Of a stretch of DNA of 64,000 nt, positions 37,761-42,453 are shown in pieces. Every line of letters starts with the position of its first letter. Positions within the stretch are counted from its first letter, which is position 1. Source of the DNA: Croceimicrobium hydrocarbonivorans (GTDB taxonomy: Bacteria > Bacteroidota > Bacteroidia > Flavobacteriales > Schleiferiaceae); assembly GCF_014524565.1 (NCBI RefSeq), contig NZ_CP060139.1, positions 1,867,501-1,931,500 of the forward strand. Reading direction: 5' to 3'. The notes beneath the pieces were generated by a model. The model searched no databases. It worked only from the letters and a program-made list of their open reading frames with translations, and was not told where the DNA came from. The position numbers were made by a program, and so were the translations under genes.

Positions 37761-38279
37761 ATGGCTAGTGAAAAGTATCAAGTTAAAGTCAATGACCAGG
37801 ATTATAAGGTTGAGGTAGTTCCCAATAGTGGTGAAATCCGCATGAATGGATTGCCTTTGGAGCTAGACCTGAAGGGCGATGCCCGCAAAGGTTTCCACCT
37901 TTTAAAAGATCAAAAGAGCTACCAAATTCAAATTTTGGAAGCGGACTATGACAGCAAAGAATTCTTAATTGAGGTAAATGGTGAGGCTTACCCCGTAAAA
38001 GGAGCTGACCGTTTCGACCTCTTGCTTAAGGATTTGGGCATGGAGCACTTAGCTAATGCTGCGGTTAATGATTTGAAAGCGCCTATGCCAGGCTTGGTAT
38101 TGGAAATTAAGGTACAGCCCGGAGATAGCATCAAAAAAGGCCAGGCTTTATTAGTACTGGAAGCCATGAAAATGGAGAATGTTCTTAAAGCTGAAAGTGA
38201 TGCCGTGGTAAAAGAAATACGCTGCGAAACCGGCCAAGCGGTAGAAAAGAATCAGATCTTAATTGAGTTCGAAGCCTAG
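37761..38279 (+). CDS. Biotinyl/lipoyl carrier protein (acyl-CoA carboxylase type), orphan
   Basis: Carries biotin for a carboxylase complex. The 172-residue protein has a C-terminal biotinyl domain with the attachment Lys in LEAMKMENVLK and the preceding APMPGLVLEIKVQPGD. The N-terminal half has no recognised domain. The usual carboxylase partners are not adjacent, which is unusual for this subtype in Bacteroidota, where propionyl-CoA-type subunits normally cluster. Its stop overlaps the convergent lipoprotein gene (CTAG, both reading TAG). Confidence 0.88.
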   Translation: MASEKYQVKVNDQDYKVEVVPNSGEIRMNGLPLELDLKGDARKGFHLLKDQKSYQIQILEADYDSKEFLIEVNGEAYPVKGADRFDLLLKDLGMEHLANAAVNDLKAPMPGLVLEIKVQPGDSIKKGQALLVLEAMKMENVLKAESDAVVKEIRCETGQAVEKNQILIEFEA

Positions 38280-39394
38280 GGATAGGCTACTGCGAAACTT
38301 CCGAAGATATTATTTACCTGCAAGGTAGATCCATCGGCACTTTTTAAGATGGCATCACCCAAGAAGCTAAAGCGTTTATGTTTGTGGCTGGATGCGGCGG
38401 CATCTAAGTATTCACCCAAAGATTCAATTTCGAAATAGCCCTGAGCATTGGGGTAGGCACTGCTGTACATCTTACCATTCTGGTCGAAGTATTGCAATTC
38501 TACCGTGGCTAAATTGTGTGCATTGGGAACCCGGTGACCTTGTTTACGGTAATCGATATTGATATCACAAGTAGGGCTACCCGGAAGTACTACTTTTTCG
38601 ATTATCTCTATTCCTCCCGATTCAAACTCAATCTCCGCTTTTACGCGGTAACCTGGCTGAAAGCCAATCACAGAATGATTTACCATGGTTCCGCTTCCTG
38701 CATTTTGACCGGCGATTTGCCAGTTTACATTTTTCACATTGCCAATTCGACTTTGAACCTCCGCTTGTAATTCGGAGTTGGTGCTCTTTAAAATATAAAC
38801 CTGGGCTTTATCGCTCTGGCCGGTGTAAATGGTGTGCTTAACCGAGGGGGTGCAGGATAAGGGCCCTTGGCTTTGCATTTCTACGCTGAAGCTATTGTAA
38901 TTCTCCTGATTAATTCCAATAAGGCTACAGCTGTCGCCATAATAGCTACTATTGGGCGTCTTCCACATCAATGGAATATGTCCGTTGATAGTATCAGCCG
39001 CAAAGAAATAATCGTAATAACCAGGTTGTACGGTACTTCCACTAGGGTCGCTATAGGGCAATGGTCCTTGTTGAAGGGCCGTTCCTGGATCGGGTGAGCT
39101 GCTATTAGCGATGATTTCCGATCCCCGGATCACGATGCATAATGCTCTTTTAAGTTGAGGGGTATCTACCGCGAGGATGCCTTTCATCTTTAGAACAGAA
39201 TCTTGCACCTCATAACTGGTATACATCTGATAACCACTTTCTCCGGCCCTTAAGTTTAGGGGTAGTCCATCTACGGTGGCGTTGATGTAGAAGCGAGGAC
39301 TTTCGATAAAGCTGGTTTGACCCATGCCATCATCATCCTTACAGCTGGATAAAAGAAGCGCTGTAATACCAAGGAGTCCAAATACCTTTTTCAT
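38276..39394 (-). CDS. Predicted lipoprotein, third gene of the sigma-factor operon
   Basis: Unknown 372-residue lipoprotein: signal peptide with lipobox (LLLSSCKDDDG), then a beta-rich body that repeats YY and GY turns and two Cys pairs. Sequence motifs point to no function. Its ATG shares one base with the stop of the sigma-linked membrane protein (39394), so it is translated with that protein and probably controlled by the same sigma factor. A surface- or periplasm-exposed partner of the barrel protein is a plausible role, inferred from context only. Confidence 0.7.
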   Translation of the reverse strand: MKKVFGLLGITALLLSSCKDDDGMGQTSFIESPRFYINATVDGLPLNLRAGESGYQMYTSYEVQDSVLKMKGILAVDTPQLKRALCIVIRGSEIIANSSSPDPGTALQQGPLPYSDPSGSTVQPGYYDYFFAADTINGHIPLMWKTPNSSYYGDSCSLIGINQENYNSFSVEMQSQGPLSCTPSVKHTIYTGQSDKAQVYILKSTNSELQAEVQSRIGNVKNVNWQIAGQNAGSGTMVNHSVIGFQPGYRVKAEIEFESGGIEIIEKVVLPGSPTCDINIDYRKQGHRVPNAHNLATVELQYFDQNGKMYSSAYPNAQGYFEIESLGEYLDAAASSHKHKRFSFLGDAILKSADGSTLQVNNIFGSFAVAYP

Positions 39395-40842
39395 TAGTTC
39401 TTGAATAAGAGGTATCGTAGTTGGAGGTTGGCCTGACCCGGACGGTGGTCAGCGGCAAAATTTTGAGCTTGGTCTTGGGTAATATCGTTGAGCGGCAAAG
39501 CATAGCTTAAGGCAAAGCTCAAACGTTCGGAGTATTGAAATTCGTAGCTCAGGCTGGCAGAGAAGTTCACCGGAGCAAAGCTGTTCATGGATTGATTGTA
39601 TTCTTTATGCTCAACCTTTGGATCTTGCTTAAATACGGTGGTGGTTTTGGTTTCATCCATTCGCACTGAAAGGAGGACATCTGTATTAAGACCTAATCCA
39701 AAGCTGTGCTGTGAGTTCAGTTTATACTGATAGGCTACAGGAATGCGAATACTTTGCAAGCTCTTATAATGGCGTTGCGTTTGTACCTCGGTACGGCCCA
39801 AGCCGAAGAAGGTGCTATCGTGCATGGTTTCCAAACCTATATCACCAGTCTGAGTATAGATAATTCCTGTGCGGATAGACGAGATTTTGTTCCATCCATA
39901 TTCATACTCTAAACCGGCACTAAAGCCTGGGCCGCCCATTTTGCCGTTTAAAGCTTGGCTAATAACAGGGCCGCCACTAGCGTAAACTTTAGAATAGGCT
40001 TGCGGAATATAAGGTTCGATTACTGGCTCTGACGATGGAAGATCCTGTATTACAAAATGGCGGGGGGCTAATTCAGCATCCAGATTTACATTGATAGGAT
40101 GCAAATCACTCGCCTGTAAATTGGGATTTGGTTCAATGTACAATGCTTGAACAGCTGGACTGCTTTCCCTTGGACGAGCACCTATTACTACCGCACTATT
40201 ATCCTGAACATAAGCCAAATCCTGACTTTCAATTCCGTTGCCAGTAGTTGAGGCATCATTGCTGCTTAAGGCCGGACTATTGTTCTCAACAGTTTCGGAG
40301 CTTTGGCTGACAGGCATTTCCACAGTTTCGGCTGCTACCGGGCTTTTCGCGGCAGGAGCAGTTTCCACAATATTTTGCTGAGGTACTGCTATTTCTACAG
40401 GCCCAAATTGATTCGCCTGATTTTGGAAAAGCAATAGGCTACTAATTCCGGCAGCGGCTAAAATAGCGGCGGCACTGCGCCAGTAGAAAGCCAATGGTTT
40501 GCGTCCTCTCTGGTCGAGAATGGCCTCCATTCGCGCCCAGTTATCGGGATTATAGGCAAACTGTGACTGATTAATCTTTTTGTCGAAGAGTGTTTGTAGC
40601 TCAGAATCGGACATACCATGTTCTGGGCCCATCTCTTCTTCCAGAGCGTCCCAGTTAGCAGGATTAAAGGGGAAGGAGGCTTGAGCCATTTTGTCGCGGA
40701 AGAGCTTTTTAAACTCTTGCTCAGACATAGGCTCGCCGGGGTCAGACATTTGTTCAAATGCTTCCCAATTGGCCTCATTGAACTCAAAGTTCTGGCCTTC
40801 CAGCTTATCTTCAAACAGCTTTTTTAGATCCTTTTCGGTCAT
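39394..40842 (-). CDS. Sigma-associated membrane protein with three N-terminal repeats and a C-terminal beta-barrel
   Basis: A 482-residue protein of unknown function beside an ECF sigma factor. Residues 6-109 are three repeats with an exact 38-residue period: LF at 9, 47 and 85, and NW at 25, 63 and 101, followed by an acidic patch. Residues about 119-138 form one membrane helix (RSAAAILAAAGISSLLLF). A Pro/Ser-rich periplasmic linker follows, and residues about 290-482 look like a PorT-type outer-membrane barrel (GFSAGLEYEYGW, SIRIPVAYQYKL, LSFALSYALPL, ANLQLRYLLF). The topology suggests cytoplasmic repeats, an inner-membrane helix and an outer-membrane barrel in one chain. An anti-sigma-like role for the repeats is inferred. 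Confidence 0.8.
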   Translation of the reverse strand: MTEKDLKKLFEDKLEGQNFEFNEANWEAFEQMSDPGEPMSEQEFKKLFRDKMAQASFPFNPANWDALEEEMGPEHGMSDSELQTLFDKKINQSQFAYNPDNWARMEAILDQRGRKPLAFYWRSAAAILAAAGISSLLLFQNQANQFGPVEIAVPQQNIVETAPAAKSPVAAETVEMPVSQSSETVENNSPALSSNDASTTGNGIESQDLAYVQDNSAVVIGARPRESSPAVQALYIEPNPNLQASDLHPINVNLDAELAPRHFVIQDLPSSEPVIEPYIPQAYSKVYASGGPVISQALNGKMGGPGFSAGLEYEYGWNKISSIRTGIIYTQTGDIGLETMHDSTFFGLGRTEVQTQRHYKSLQSIRIPVAYQYKLNSQHSFGLGLNTDVLLSVRMDETKTTTVFKQDPKVEHKEYNQSMNSFAPVNFSASLSYEFQYSERLSFALSYALPLNDITQDQAQNFAADHRPGQANLQLRYLLFKN

Positions 40843-40850
40843 TACTGCTC

Positions 40851-41402
40851 TTAGGCTACGTTGTCCATTAAGTTACGCATCATCTCTTGCAATTTCTTGC
40901 GGGCACTGCTGAGGTGCCATTTGCTGGTTCCTTCACTCATTCCCAGCTTTTCAGCAATTTCTTTATGGTTGTATCCGTCAATGATATAGAGGTTAAAAAC
41001 CTTCTGACTCACTGGCGGAAGCTTTTGCACCAGGGCTAATAATTCCTCGGCGTCAAAGCGTTTTTCTGCTTCATTGTAGTCCATTTCACTGAGCGAAGCC
41101 AGCTGCATGGGTTCTTCTACATAATCCACTTTCGAGCGTTGATTCTTTCGATATTCATCAATTGCTGTATTGATGGTAATCCTCCGAATCCAAGCCTCGA
41201 AAGGCACAGAGCTGGAGTAAGACTCCAGATTATTTAAAATTTTCAGGAAGGCCTTATTCAACAGAAACTCAGCATCTTCCTTATTCCTTTCATATCGAAA
41301 GCACACAGCCATAAGTATCCCGTAGCAGAGCTTGTAGAGCTCATACTGGGCCTTCCGCTCACCGCGGATGCAACCTTCCAGCAAATGCTTTTCGATGTTC
41401 AT
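40851..41402 (-). CDS. ECF RNA polymerase sigma factor
   Basis: Group 4 sigma-70 family factor. From the ATG at 41402 it is 183 residues: region 2 (YELYKLCYGILMAVCFRYERNKEDAEF, then WIRRITINTAIDEYRKNQ), and region 4 with the helix-turn-helix DGYNHKEIAEKLGMSEGTSKWHLSSARKKL. An in-frame TTG at 41411 is less likely than this ATG. It starts the three-gene run sigma, repeat-barrel protein, lipoprotein; the gap to the next gene is 8 nt. A TAAATTAG element lies 18 nt upstream. Confidence 0.93.
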   Translation of the reverse strand: MNIEKHLLEGCIRGERKAQYELYKLCYGILMAVCFRYERNKEDAEFLLNKAFLKILNNLESYSSSVPFEAWIRRITINTAIDEYRKNQRSKVDYVEEPMQLASLSEMDYNEAEKRFDAEELLALVQKLPPVSQKVFNLYIIDGYNHKEIAEKLGMSEGTSKWHLSSARKKLQEMMRNLMDNVA

Positions 41403-41420
41403 GGATCCCAATTCTTCCGG

Positions 41421-41428
41421 CTAATTTA
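41421..41428 (-). promoter_or_regulatory. Putative -7-like element (TAAATTAG) of the ECF sigma operon
   Basis: Minus-strand TAAATTAG (TAnnTTAG type), 18 nt before the sigma ATG at 41402. Confidence 0.3.
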
Positions 41429-41460
41429 TTGAATTTAAAGGGTTTTGCCCTCGGTTCAAT

Positions 41461-41495
41461 AAAAAACGCCATTCCCCGGGAAAAGAATGACGTTT
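41461..41495 (-). terminator. Terminator after the PfkB kinase gene
   Basis: On the minus strand AAACGTCATTC (41495-41485) pairs with GAATGGCGTTT (41474-41464) over 11 bp with one G-T wobble, followed by a run of T. It is 34 nt after the kinase stop and before the sigma operon, insulating the two. Confidence 0.8.
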
Positions 41496-41529: not shown

Positions 41530-42453
41530 TTAAGACATTTTCATGTCGAAATCTGTCAAACTGATGAATCGCATCACCCGATCGTGAAGATCTCCGCGGT
41601 CTAAATCGCGCAATTTATGGGTGCCAAACTCTTCTACACAGAAGGAAGCTAAGGCAGATCCGTAAATAATTCCGCGCTTCATACTCTCGAAACTTACTTC
41701 ATCCGAATCGCAAACATGACCAATAAAACCGCCGGCAAAAGTGTCGCCCGCACCGGTAGGATCATATACTTCTTCCAGAGGAAGGGCTGGTGCATAGAAT
41801 AATTCTTTACCATGGAACAATAGAGCGCCGTGTTCCCCTTTCTTAATGATCAGGTATTTAGGGCCCATTTCAAAAATCTTAGCGGCGGCTTTCACCAAAG
41901 AATATTCGCCACTTAATTGGCGGGCCTCCTCATCATTAATGGTAAGCAGATCTACTTCCTTTAATACCTCTTTTAATTCGGGCATGGCAATATCCATCCA
42001 GAAGTTCATAGTATCCATAACCACTAACTTCGGACGTTGCTTCATTTGCTTTAATACCTTCATCTGGATGGCCGGGGTTAAATTTCCCAGCATCAGGTAT
42101 TCGGCCTCGCGCGCTTTTTCGGGTAAAATCGGATCGAAATCTGCTAAGACATTTAATTCGGTCGCTAAGGAGTCGCGAGAGTTCATATCATTATGATATT
42201 TACCCTTCCAGAAAAAGGTTTTGCCTCCTTCTACGCGTTTTATTCCTTCGGTATCGATGCCCTTGGAACGCATTAAGGCTAATTTTTCTTCCGGAAAATC
42301 TTCTCCGATGATGGAAACGATCGAAATATCTTTACAAAGATTAGAAGCAGATAGAGAGGCGTAAGTCGCTGATCCTCCGATAATTCTGCCAGACTCTCCG
42401 AAGGGAGTGATTAATTCGTCAAAGGCAACTGTGCCTACGATTAAAAGACTCAT
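41530..42453 (-). CDS. PfkB-family carbohydrate/nucleoside kinase
   Basis: Ribokinase-fold sugar or nucleoside kinase of 307 residues. It has the N-terminal motif IVGTVAFDELITPFGES, the GGSATYASLSASNL segment and the PfkB signature DPTGAGDTFAGGFIG with the catalytic Asp, preceded by IIKKGEHGAL. Adenosine-kinase-like or ribokinase-like substrates are both possible. It stands alone between the sigma operon and tRNA-Asn, with its own terminator. Confidence 0.9.
   Translation of the reverse strand: MSLLIVGTVAFDELITPFGESGRIIGGSATYASLSASNLCKDISIVSIIGEDFPEEKLALMRSKGIDTEGIKRVEGGKTFFWKGKYHNDMNSRDSLATELNVLADFDPILPEKAREAEYLMLGNLTPAIQMKVLKQMKQRPKLVVMDTMNFWMDIAMPELKEVLKEVDLLTINDEEARQLSGEYSLVKAAAKIFEMGPKYLIIKKGEHGALLFHGKELFYAPALPLEEVYDPTGAGDTFAGGFIGHVCDSDEVSFESMKRGIIYGSALASFCVEEFGTHKLRDLDRGDLHDRVMRFISLTDFDMKMS

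Follow-up and report, generated by a model that had tools for sequence, protein, structure and literature searches.

How is an ECF sigma factor controlled when the gene behind it encodes a protein with a threefold N-terminal repeat, a membrane helix and a C-terminal barrel, and what would the repetition add? This question is raised by a three-gene operon in the window, i.e., the stretch of 64,000 nucleotides from Croceimicrobium hydrocarbonivorans that was analysed here. Most ECF sigma factors of the Bacteroidota lack the usual anti-sigma domain neighbour (PMC7406223). The reading favoured here, at a probability of roughly 70%, is an overall Dma-type mechanism with duplicated modules, carried by the product of the second gene (hereafter, the partner).

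Organization of the operon

The minus strand carries, in order, the genes for the ECF sigma factor, the partner and a lipoprotein (Table 1); the open reading frames are as the initial annotation had described them. The sigma factor is matched by Pfam Sigma70_r2 (E = 2e-12) and r4_2 (E = 9e-15), and is 65-72% identical to the sigma factors from other genera of the family. Its start is placed at the ATG at 41402, with an in-frame TTG at 41411 as a possible alternative. The partner ORF begins 8 nt past the end of the sigma gene, and the ATG of the lipoprotein gene overlaps the partner stop codon (TAATG at 39394).

Upstream of the operon, the inverted repeat listed in Table 1 occupies the same place as a hairpin found in other genera (L012, L014-L018, L010, L020, L021), to which it is unrelated. 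That hairpin, which has a run of T, stands 10-20 nt upstream of the start codon of the sigma gene, its arms covary (double change at 9 of 14 pairs in 10 sequences), and its 3′ half holds TAAATTAG, a promoter-like box. An attenuator or an operator are candidate roles for either element. Immediately ahead of the sigma operon is a pfkB-family sugar kinase gene (41530-42453), a synteny kept in most of the family, and this gene is followed by a conserved ACCCAACC.

Table 1. Features of the operon, with positions counted from the first letter of the window
Feature	Position	Strand	Basis or remarks
Inverted repeat TTTATTGAA / TTCAATAAA, candidate element, present in the genus	41425..41463	-	Just upstream of sigma start
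ECF sigma factor, 183 aa from ATG	40851..41402	-	Pfam Sigma70_r2/r4_2, NCBIfam sigma70-ECF
Very probable Dma-type anti-sigma partner, 482 aa	39394..40842	-	Module + TM + tether + barrel; module profile matches dma2-type proteins too
Module copy 1, residues 1-38	40729..40842	-	Self-alignment; hmmsearch 1e-11
Module copy 2, residues 39-76	40615..40728	-	Self-alignment; hmmsearch 6e-10
Module copy 3, residues 77-111, ancestral by comparison, adjoins membrane helix	40510..40614	-	BLAST starts, repeat tree
Membrane helix region, residues 115-142	40417..40500	-	Hydropathy, charge bias; model helix 116-145
Disordered tether, residues 143-275	40018..40416	-	pLDDT mostly <50; 62% P/S/T/N/Q/E/A; dN
C-terminal beta barrel, residues 276-482	39397..40017	-	Pfam OMP_b-brl_2; model strands 283-450
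Lipoprotein, 372 aa, SSC-KDDD	38276..39394	-	Invariant C18, conserved in 17 loci

Architecture of the partner protein

The first 111 residues of the partner are built of a short repeated module, with LF at positions 9, 47 and 85 and NW at positions 25, 63 and 101. Aligned with itself at a period of 38, the protein scores 158, whereas no period from 10 to 59 exceeded 22 in 2000 shuffles; the triple repeat of the initial annotation is thereby confirmed, and chance periodicity was rejected. The module consensus, LF..K.....F.FNP.NW...E..LD, corresponds to two helices. Residues L9, F10, K13 and W26 are invariant across the 23 repeats of the genus, and the 38-residue spacing is preserved at every junction but one. 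The repeats had been described as a block standing before the membrane helix: their number is correct, but the block is not separate, as the repeats run straight into the helix.

A single membrane helix is also well founded. The hydropathy peak at residues 121-139 reaches 1.56, just below the usual threshold of 1.6, and the flanking charges (+3 N-terminal and -2 C-terminal to the helix) follow the positive-inside rule. Beyond the helix, the tether is the fastest-evolving segment of the protein. The C-terminal domain matches Pfam OMP_b-brl_2 with 27.7 bits (cut-off 27); 18 of 19 aligned relatives match the family too. The protein ends in LRYLLF-KN, with LRYRLF or VILRYRLY in relatives; such a C-terminal aromatic beta-signal is typical of outer-membrane proteins.

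Structure models were built on shallow sets of 5 and 9 sequences (the window and four near relatives), and the single-protein locus search returned four loci, all from closely related genomes whose partners have three or four repeats. The model of the partner has a mean pLDDT of 45.7, with 67 residues of the barrel at or above 70 and the remainder below. Each module is modelled as a helix pair; a further helix spans 116-145, the stretch 146-280 is largely without structure, and long strands run between 283 and 450. The closest folds in the PDB are, with few exceptions, outer-membrane barrels, at E-values of 0.015 or worse, none of them significant. Between a barrel and a soluble periplasmic fold, the model strands, the Pfam match and the nearest folds all fall on the barrel side. 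The sigma factor was co-folded with three repeats by reading through, as glycine, the in-frame stop codon that separates these genes in a relative (L074); this read-through model, again from a shallow alignment, has a mean pLDDT of 46.2 and no usable interface. The low confidence of both models (pLDDT about 46) is attributable to the shallow alignments. A PDB sequence search with the repeat module gave no matches.

Searched against Pfam, the partner has no FecR match at E ≤ 1, and neither Pfam nor NCBIfam places an anti-sigma domain (ASDI/zf-HC2/RseA) in it. There is no cysteine in the protein, and hence no ZAS-type zinc site. Filing the partner under FecR, or under the class I anti-sigma proteins, was rejected for want of the corresponding Pfam domain. 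The general layout, in which cytoplasmic repeats next to the sigma factor are followed by an inner-membrane helix, a tether and a predicted outer-membrane barrel, is supported.

The module accompanies ECF sigma factors

In a sample of 297 genomes of the phylum, a profile of the module and helix finds matches in 81. At each of the 89 module loci fetched, the module gene stands immediately behind an ECF sigma gene, and the end of the sigma-profile match lies in a range that extends from 62 nt ahead of the first position of the module match to 58 nt beyond it. These loci are best matches that include near-duplicates, so the figure speaks for a strong association of sigma factor and module rather than for an unbiased census. 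The short sigma-linked module thus offers a compact search tool for an alternative to the usual anti-sigma domain.

Only one other protein of the same genome carries the module, once. It is a 239-aa partner encoded in a second operon (L002; G000:C1, about 1805000; locus positions 1084-2368) directly behind an ECF sigma factor that is 40% identical to that of the window. This protein lacks the barrel, as do other module proteins, and a barrel is therefore not required of every module protein. Two small proteins follow the 239-aa partner, at least one of them with a signal-like N-terminus. Short module partners, in frames of 220-300 aa, are common in the phylum. At two further loci, the module lies behind an ECF sigma factor and is fused to C-terminal parts of more than 700 aa (L071, 1-2123) and 907 aa (L072, 964-3687), apparently another class of module-bearing partner.

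Relation to the Dma family

The Dma family of anti-sigma factors and its architecture are reportedly set out by Pardue in the main Dma1 paper (PNAS, 2024). According to the excerpted 2026 account of Dma2 (Pardue; PMC13088901), the Bacteroides thetaiotaomicron protein begins with a sigma-binding domain, which is followed by a transmembrane helix, a long disordered tether and, at the C-terminus, a barrel; its gene is the middle one of the operon das2-dma2-BT_1557, flanked by das2, which encodes the sigma factor, and by a DUF4943 gene. Used as a marker, DUF4943 (PF16301) pointed to four genomes. The module profile matches a gene between an ECF sigma gene and a DUF4943 gene in one of them (G369, E = 9.7e-7) and a gene directly before a DUF4943 gene in another (G361, E = 0.0056), both being labelled dma2-type by gene order and architecture, not via the BT_1558 sequence. 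The window sigma factor is 31% identical to the sigma factor of the dma2-type operon, and the window barrel aligns only weakly with the dma2-type barrel, a point against the favoured reading.

The match of the module to genes in the dma2 layout, the sigma gene ahead of the module at all 89 loci and the shared architecture together make it very likely that the partner is a Dma-type anti-sigma factor. By homology to Dma1 and Dma2, we infer that the partner would bind and inhibit its sigma factor; its barrel would be inserted in the outer membrane and serve in sensing. In other systems, some ECF partners are needed for activity (FecR-type), and with this precedent the partner could be a positive co-factor, or a membrane tether, that the sigma factor needs. 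Such a role is very improbable here, since Dma1 and Dma2 genetically repress their sigma factors, Das1 and Das2, in the excerpted account (PMC13088901). The trans-envelope path unlike that of FecR, suggested in the initial annotation, thus holds in outline but is not new, as it is the Dma architecture already published in that account.

Copy number and selection

In the genus of the window, the partner has three modules in five of the seven genomes and four in the other two (G017, G019), while the complete relatives in the family's other genera all have a single one. Most BLAST matches from other genera start near residue 77 of the window protein, i.e., at module 3. On sequence comparison, module 3 together with the membrane helix is the ancestral unit. 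In a tree of the repeats, the copies group largely by position across species (the sequences are short and several nodes weakly supported), which dates the duplications as old within the genus. Values of dN range from 0.01 to 0.44 in the repeats and from 0.10 to 1.25 in the tether of the same pairs, and in every pair the repeats diverge much less than the tether; dN/dS ratios are not quoted, as synonymous sites are saturated in distant pairs. The added copies, r1 and r2, are constrained about as much as the ancestral last copy, or more, and, by the same comparisons, purifying selection acts on every module copy of the genus. Low dN in each copy led to the rejection of decaying duplicates.

Module 1 differs from its neighbourhood when compared with G014 (L003): its synonymous divergence is 0.11, versus 0.35-1.03 in the adjoining segments, although few sites are involved. 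This might perhaps reflect constraint on the gene start or a recent conversion.

Tandem modules also occur in the genus of G205 (61 genomes), where paired matches count two-module proteins in at least 16 genomes; one example (L068, 775-1884) has no barrel. This being a separate two-module genus, tandem modules probably arose at least twice.

Taken together, copy-number history and conservation make sigma binding by each repeat, as suggested in the initial annotation, plausible, and it is somewhat favoured that the extra modules do bind sigma. How they would do so is less certain, and less than even odds are given to several sigma molecules being held at once rather than one more tightly. The extra repeats might instead act jointly on a single sigma factor, with copies touching regions 2 and 4, so that affinity would rise by avidity at unchanged stoichiometry. 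The copies have indeed diverged into position-specific types kept across the genus, which would fit different partners or surfaces, and the nearly constant 38-residue spacing points the same way; against this, all copies share the same core of L9, F10, K13 and W26, and one module is enough in all other genera of the family. A joint grip is accordingly a possibility to be taken seriously, at less than even odds. It is also conceivable that sigma binding falls to one module alone, the added copies serving as a spacer or as binding sites for a different cytoplasmic protein, e.g., a further sigma factor. The other operon of the genome, with a 40% identical sigma factor and a single module, and the differences between copy types would suit this explanation, but the core residues and low dN kept in every copy argue against a mere spacer, and it is considered improbable. 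Natural proteins with one, two, three and four modules provide a ready series for testing anti-sigma valency against response, with no need for protein design.

The lipoprotein

As had been noted, a lipoprotein is encoded behind the partner, with an overlapping start and an invariant lipobox cysteine (17 relatives). No Pfam family is matched by it. In Capnocytophaga, K-(D/E)2 is a surface export signal in which the lysine is commoner at +3 than at +2 (PMC5080379). The KDDD after C18 fits this signal, with its lysine at +2, and the lipoprotein may therefore be located at the surface, where it could act together with the barrel; alternatively, it may be a target of the sigma factor. Most of the family has its gene next after that of the partner, but two genomes (L010, L011) do not, hence the lipoprotein is regarded as accessory. 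A search of 60 genomes of the order gave no PF16301, and the lipoprotein has no Pfam match, so the third gene is no recognisable relative of DUF4943.

Proposed mechanism

These elements can be assembled into a model in which the short N-terminal module would hold the sigma factor at the inner membrane, while the signal-anchor helix and some 130 residues of tether would join the module to the small outer-membrane barrel. The trigger could be stress at the outer membrane, a barrel that fails to assemble or a ligand carried by the lipoprotein; it would break or alter the connection between the two membranes and release the sigma factor. In the genus of the window, the module would have been duplicated in tandem, from one to three copies and to four in two genomes, and the extra modules would allow the anchor to hold more than one sigma factor, or one more tightly. 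With more sigma, or sigma more tightly held, the dose and threshold of the switch would change. A bolder version, which we regard as unlikely though worth stating, is that each tandem module holds its own sigma factor, one outer-membrane event frees three or four at once, and lineages tune the gain of the stress response by tandem duplication. If true, module copy number would be a gain control of the stress response.

Comparison with known systems

Like FecR/FecI, the window operon would control an ECF sigma factor across the envelope. It has neither a FecR domain nor a TonB-dependent receptor, and the partner unites the barrel and the putative sigma-binding part on one polypeptide. The class I anti-sigma proteins (ASDI/ZAS, RseA- or RsiW-like) resemble the partner, as predicted, in being inner-membrane proteins with a cytoplasmic sigma-binding N-terminus, yet the partner has no Pfam anti-sigma domain there. 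An ASDI neighbour stands beside only 6% of Bacteroidetes ECF sigma factors (PMC7406223), which leaves room for another module. The C-terminal domain belongs to the same Pfam family, PF13568, as PorT and other OMP_b-brl_2 small barrels; unlike these, the barrel of the partner is part of a longer protein that also has a cytoplasmic module and a membrane helix, and orthology with PorT is not claimed.

The closest likeness is to the Dma proteins, with which the partner shares an adjoining ECF sigma gene, a predicted sigma-binding N-terminus, a membrane helix, a tether and a barrel. The dma2 operon also has a third gene, as does that of the window, but it encodes DUF4943 there and an unrelated lipoprotein here. 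Repeats are not mentioned in the excerpted account of Dma2 (PMC13088901). Dma has one module and is found in Bacteroides thetaiotaomicron, whereas the window-type partner, with three modules (four in relatives), is found in Flavobacteriales genomes. What is new here is the multiplication of the module on a Dma-type architecture.
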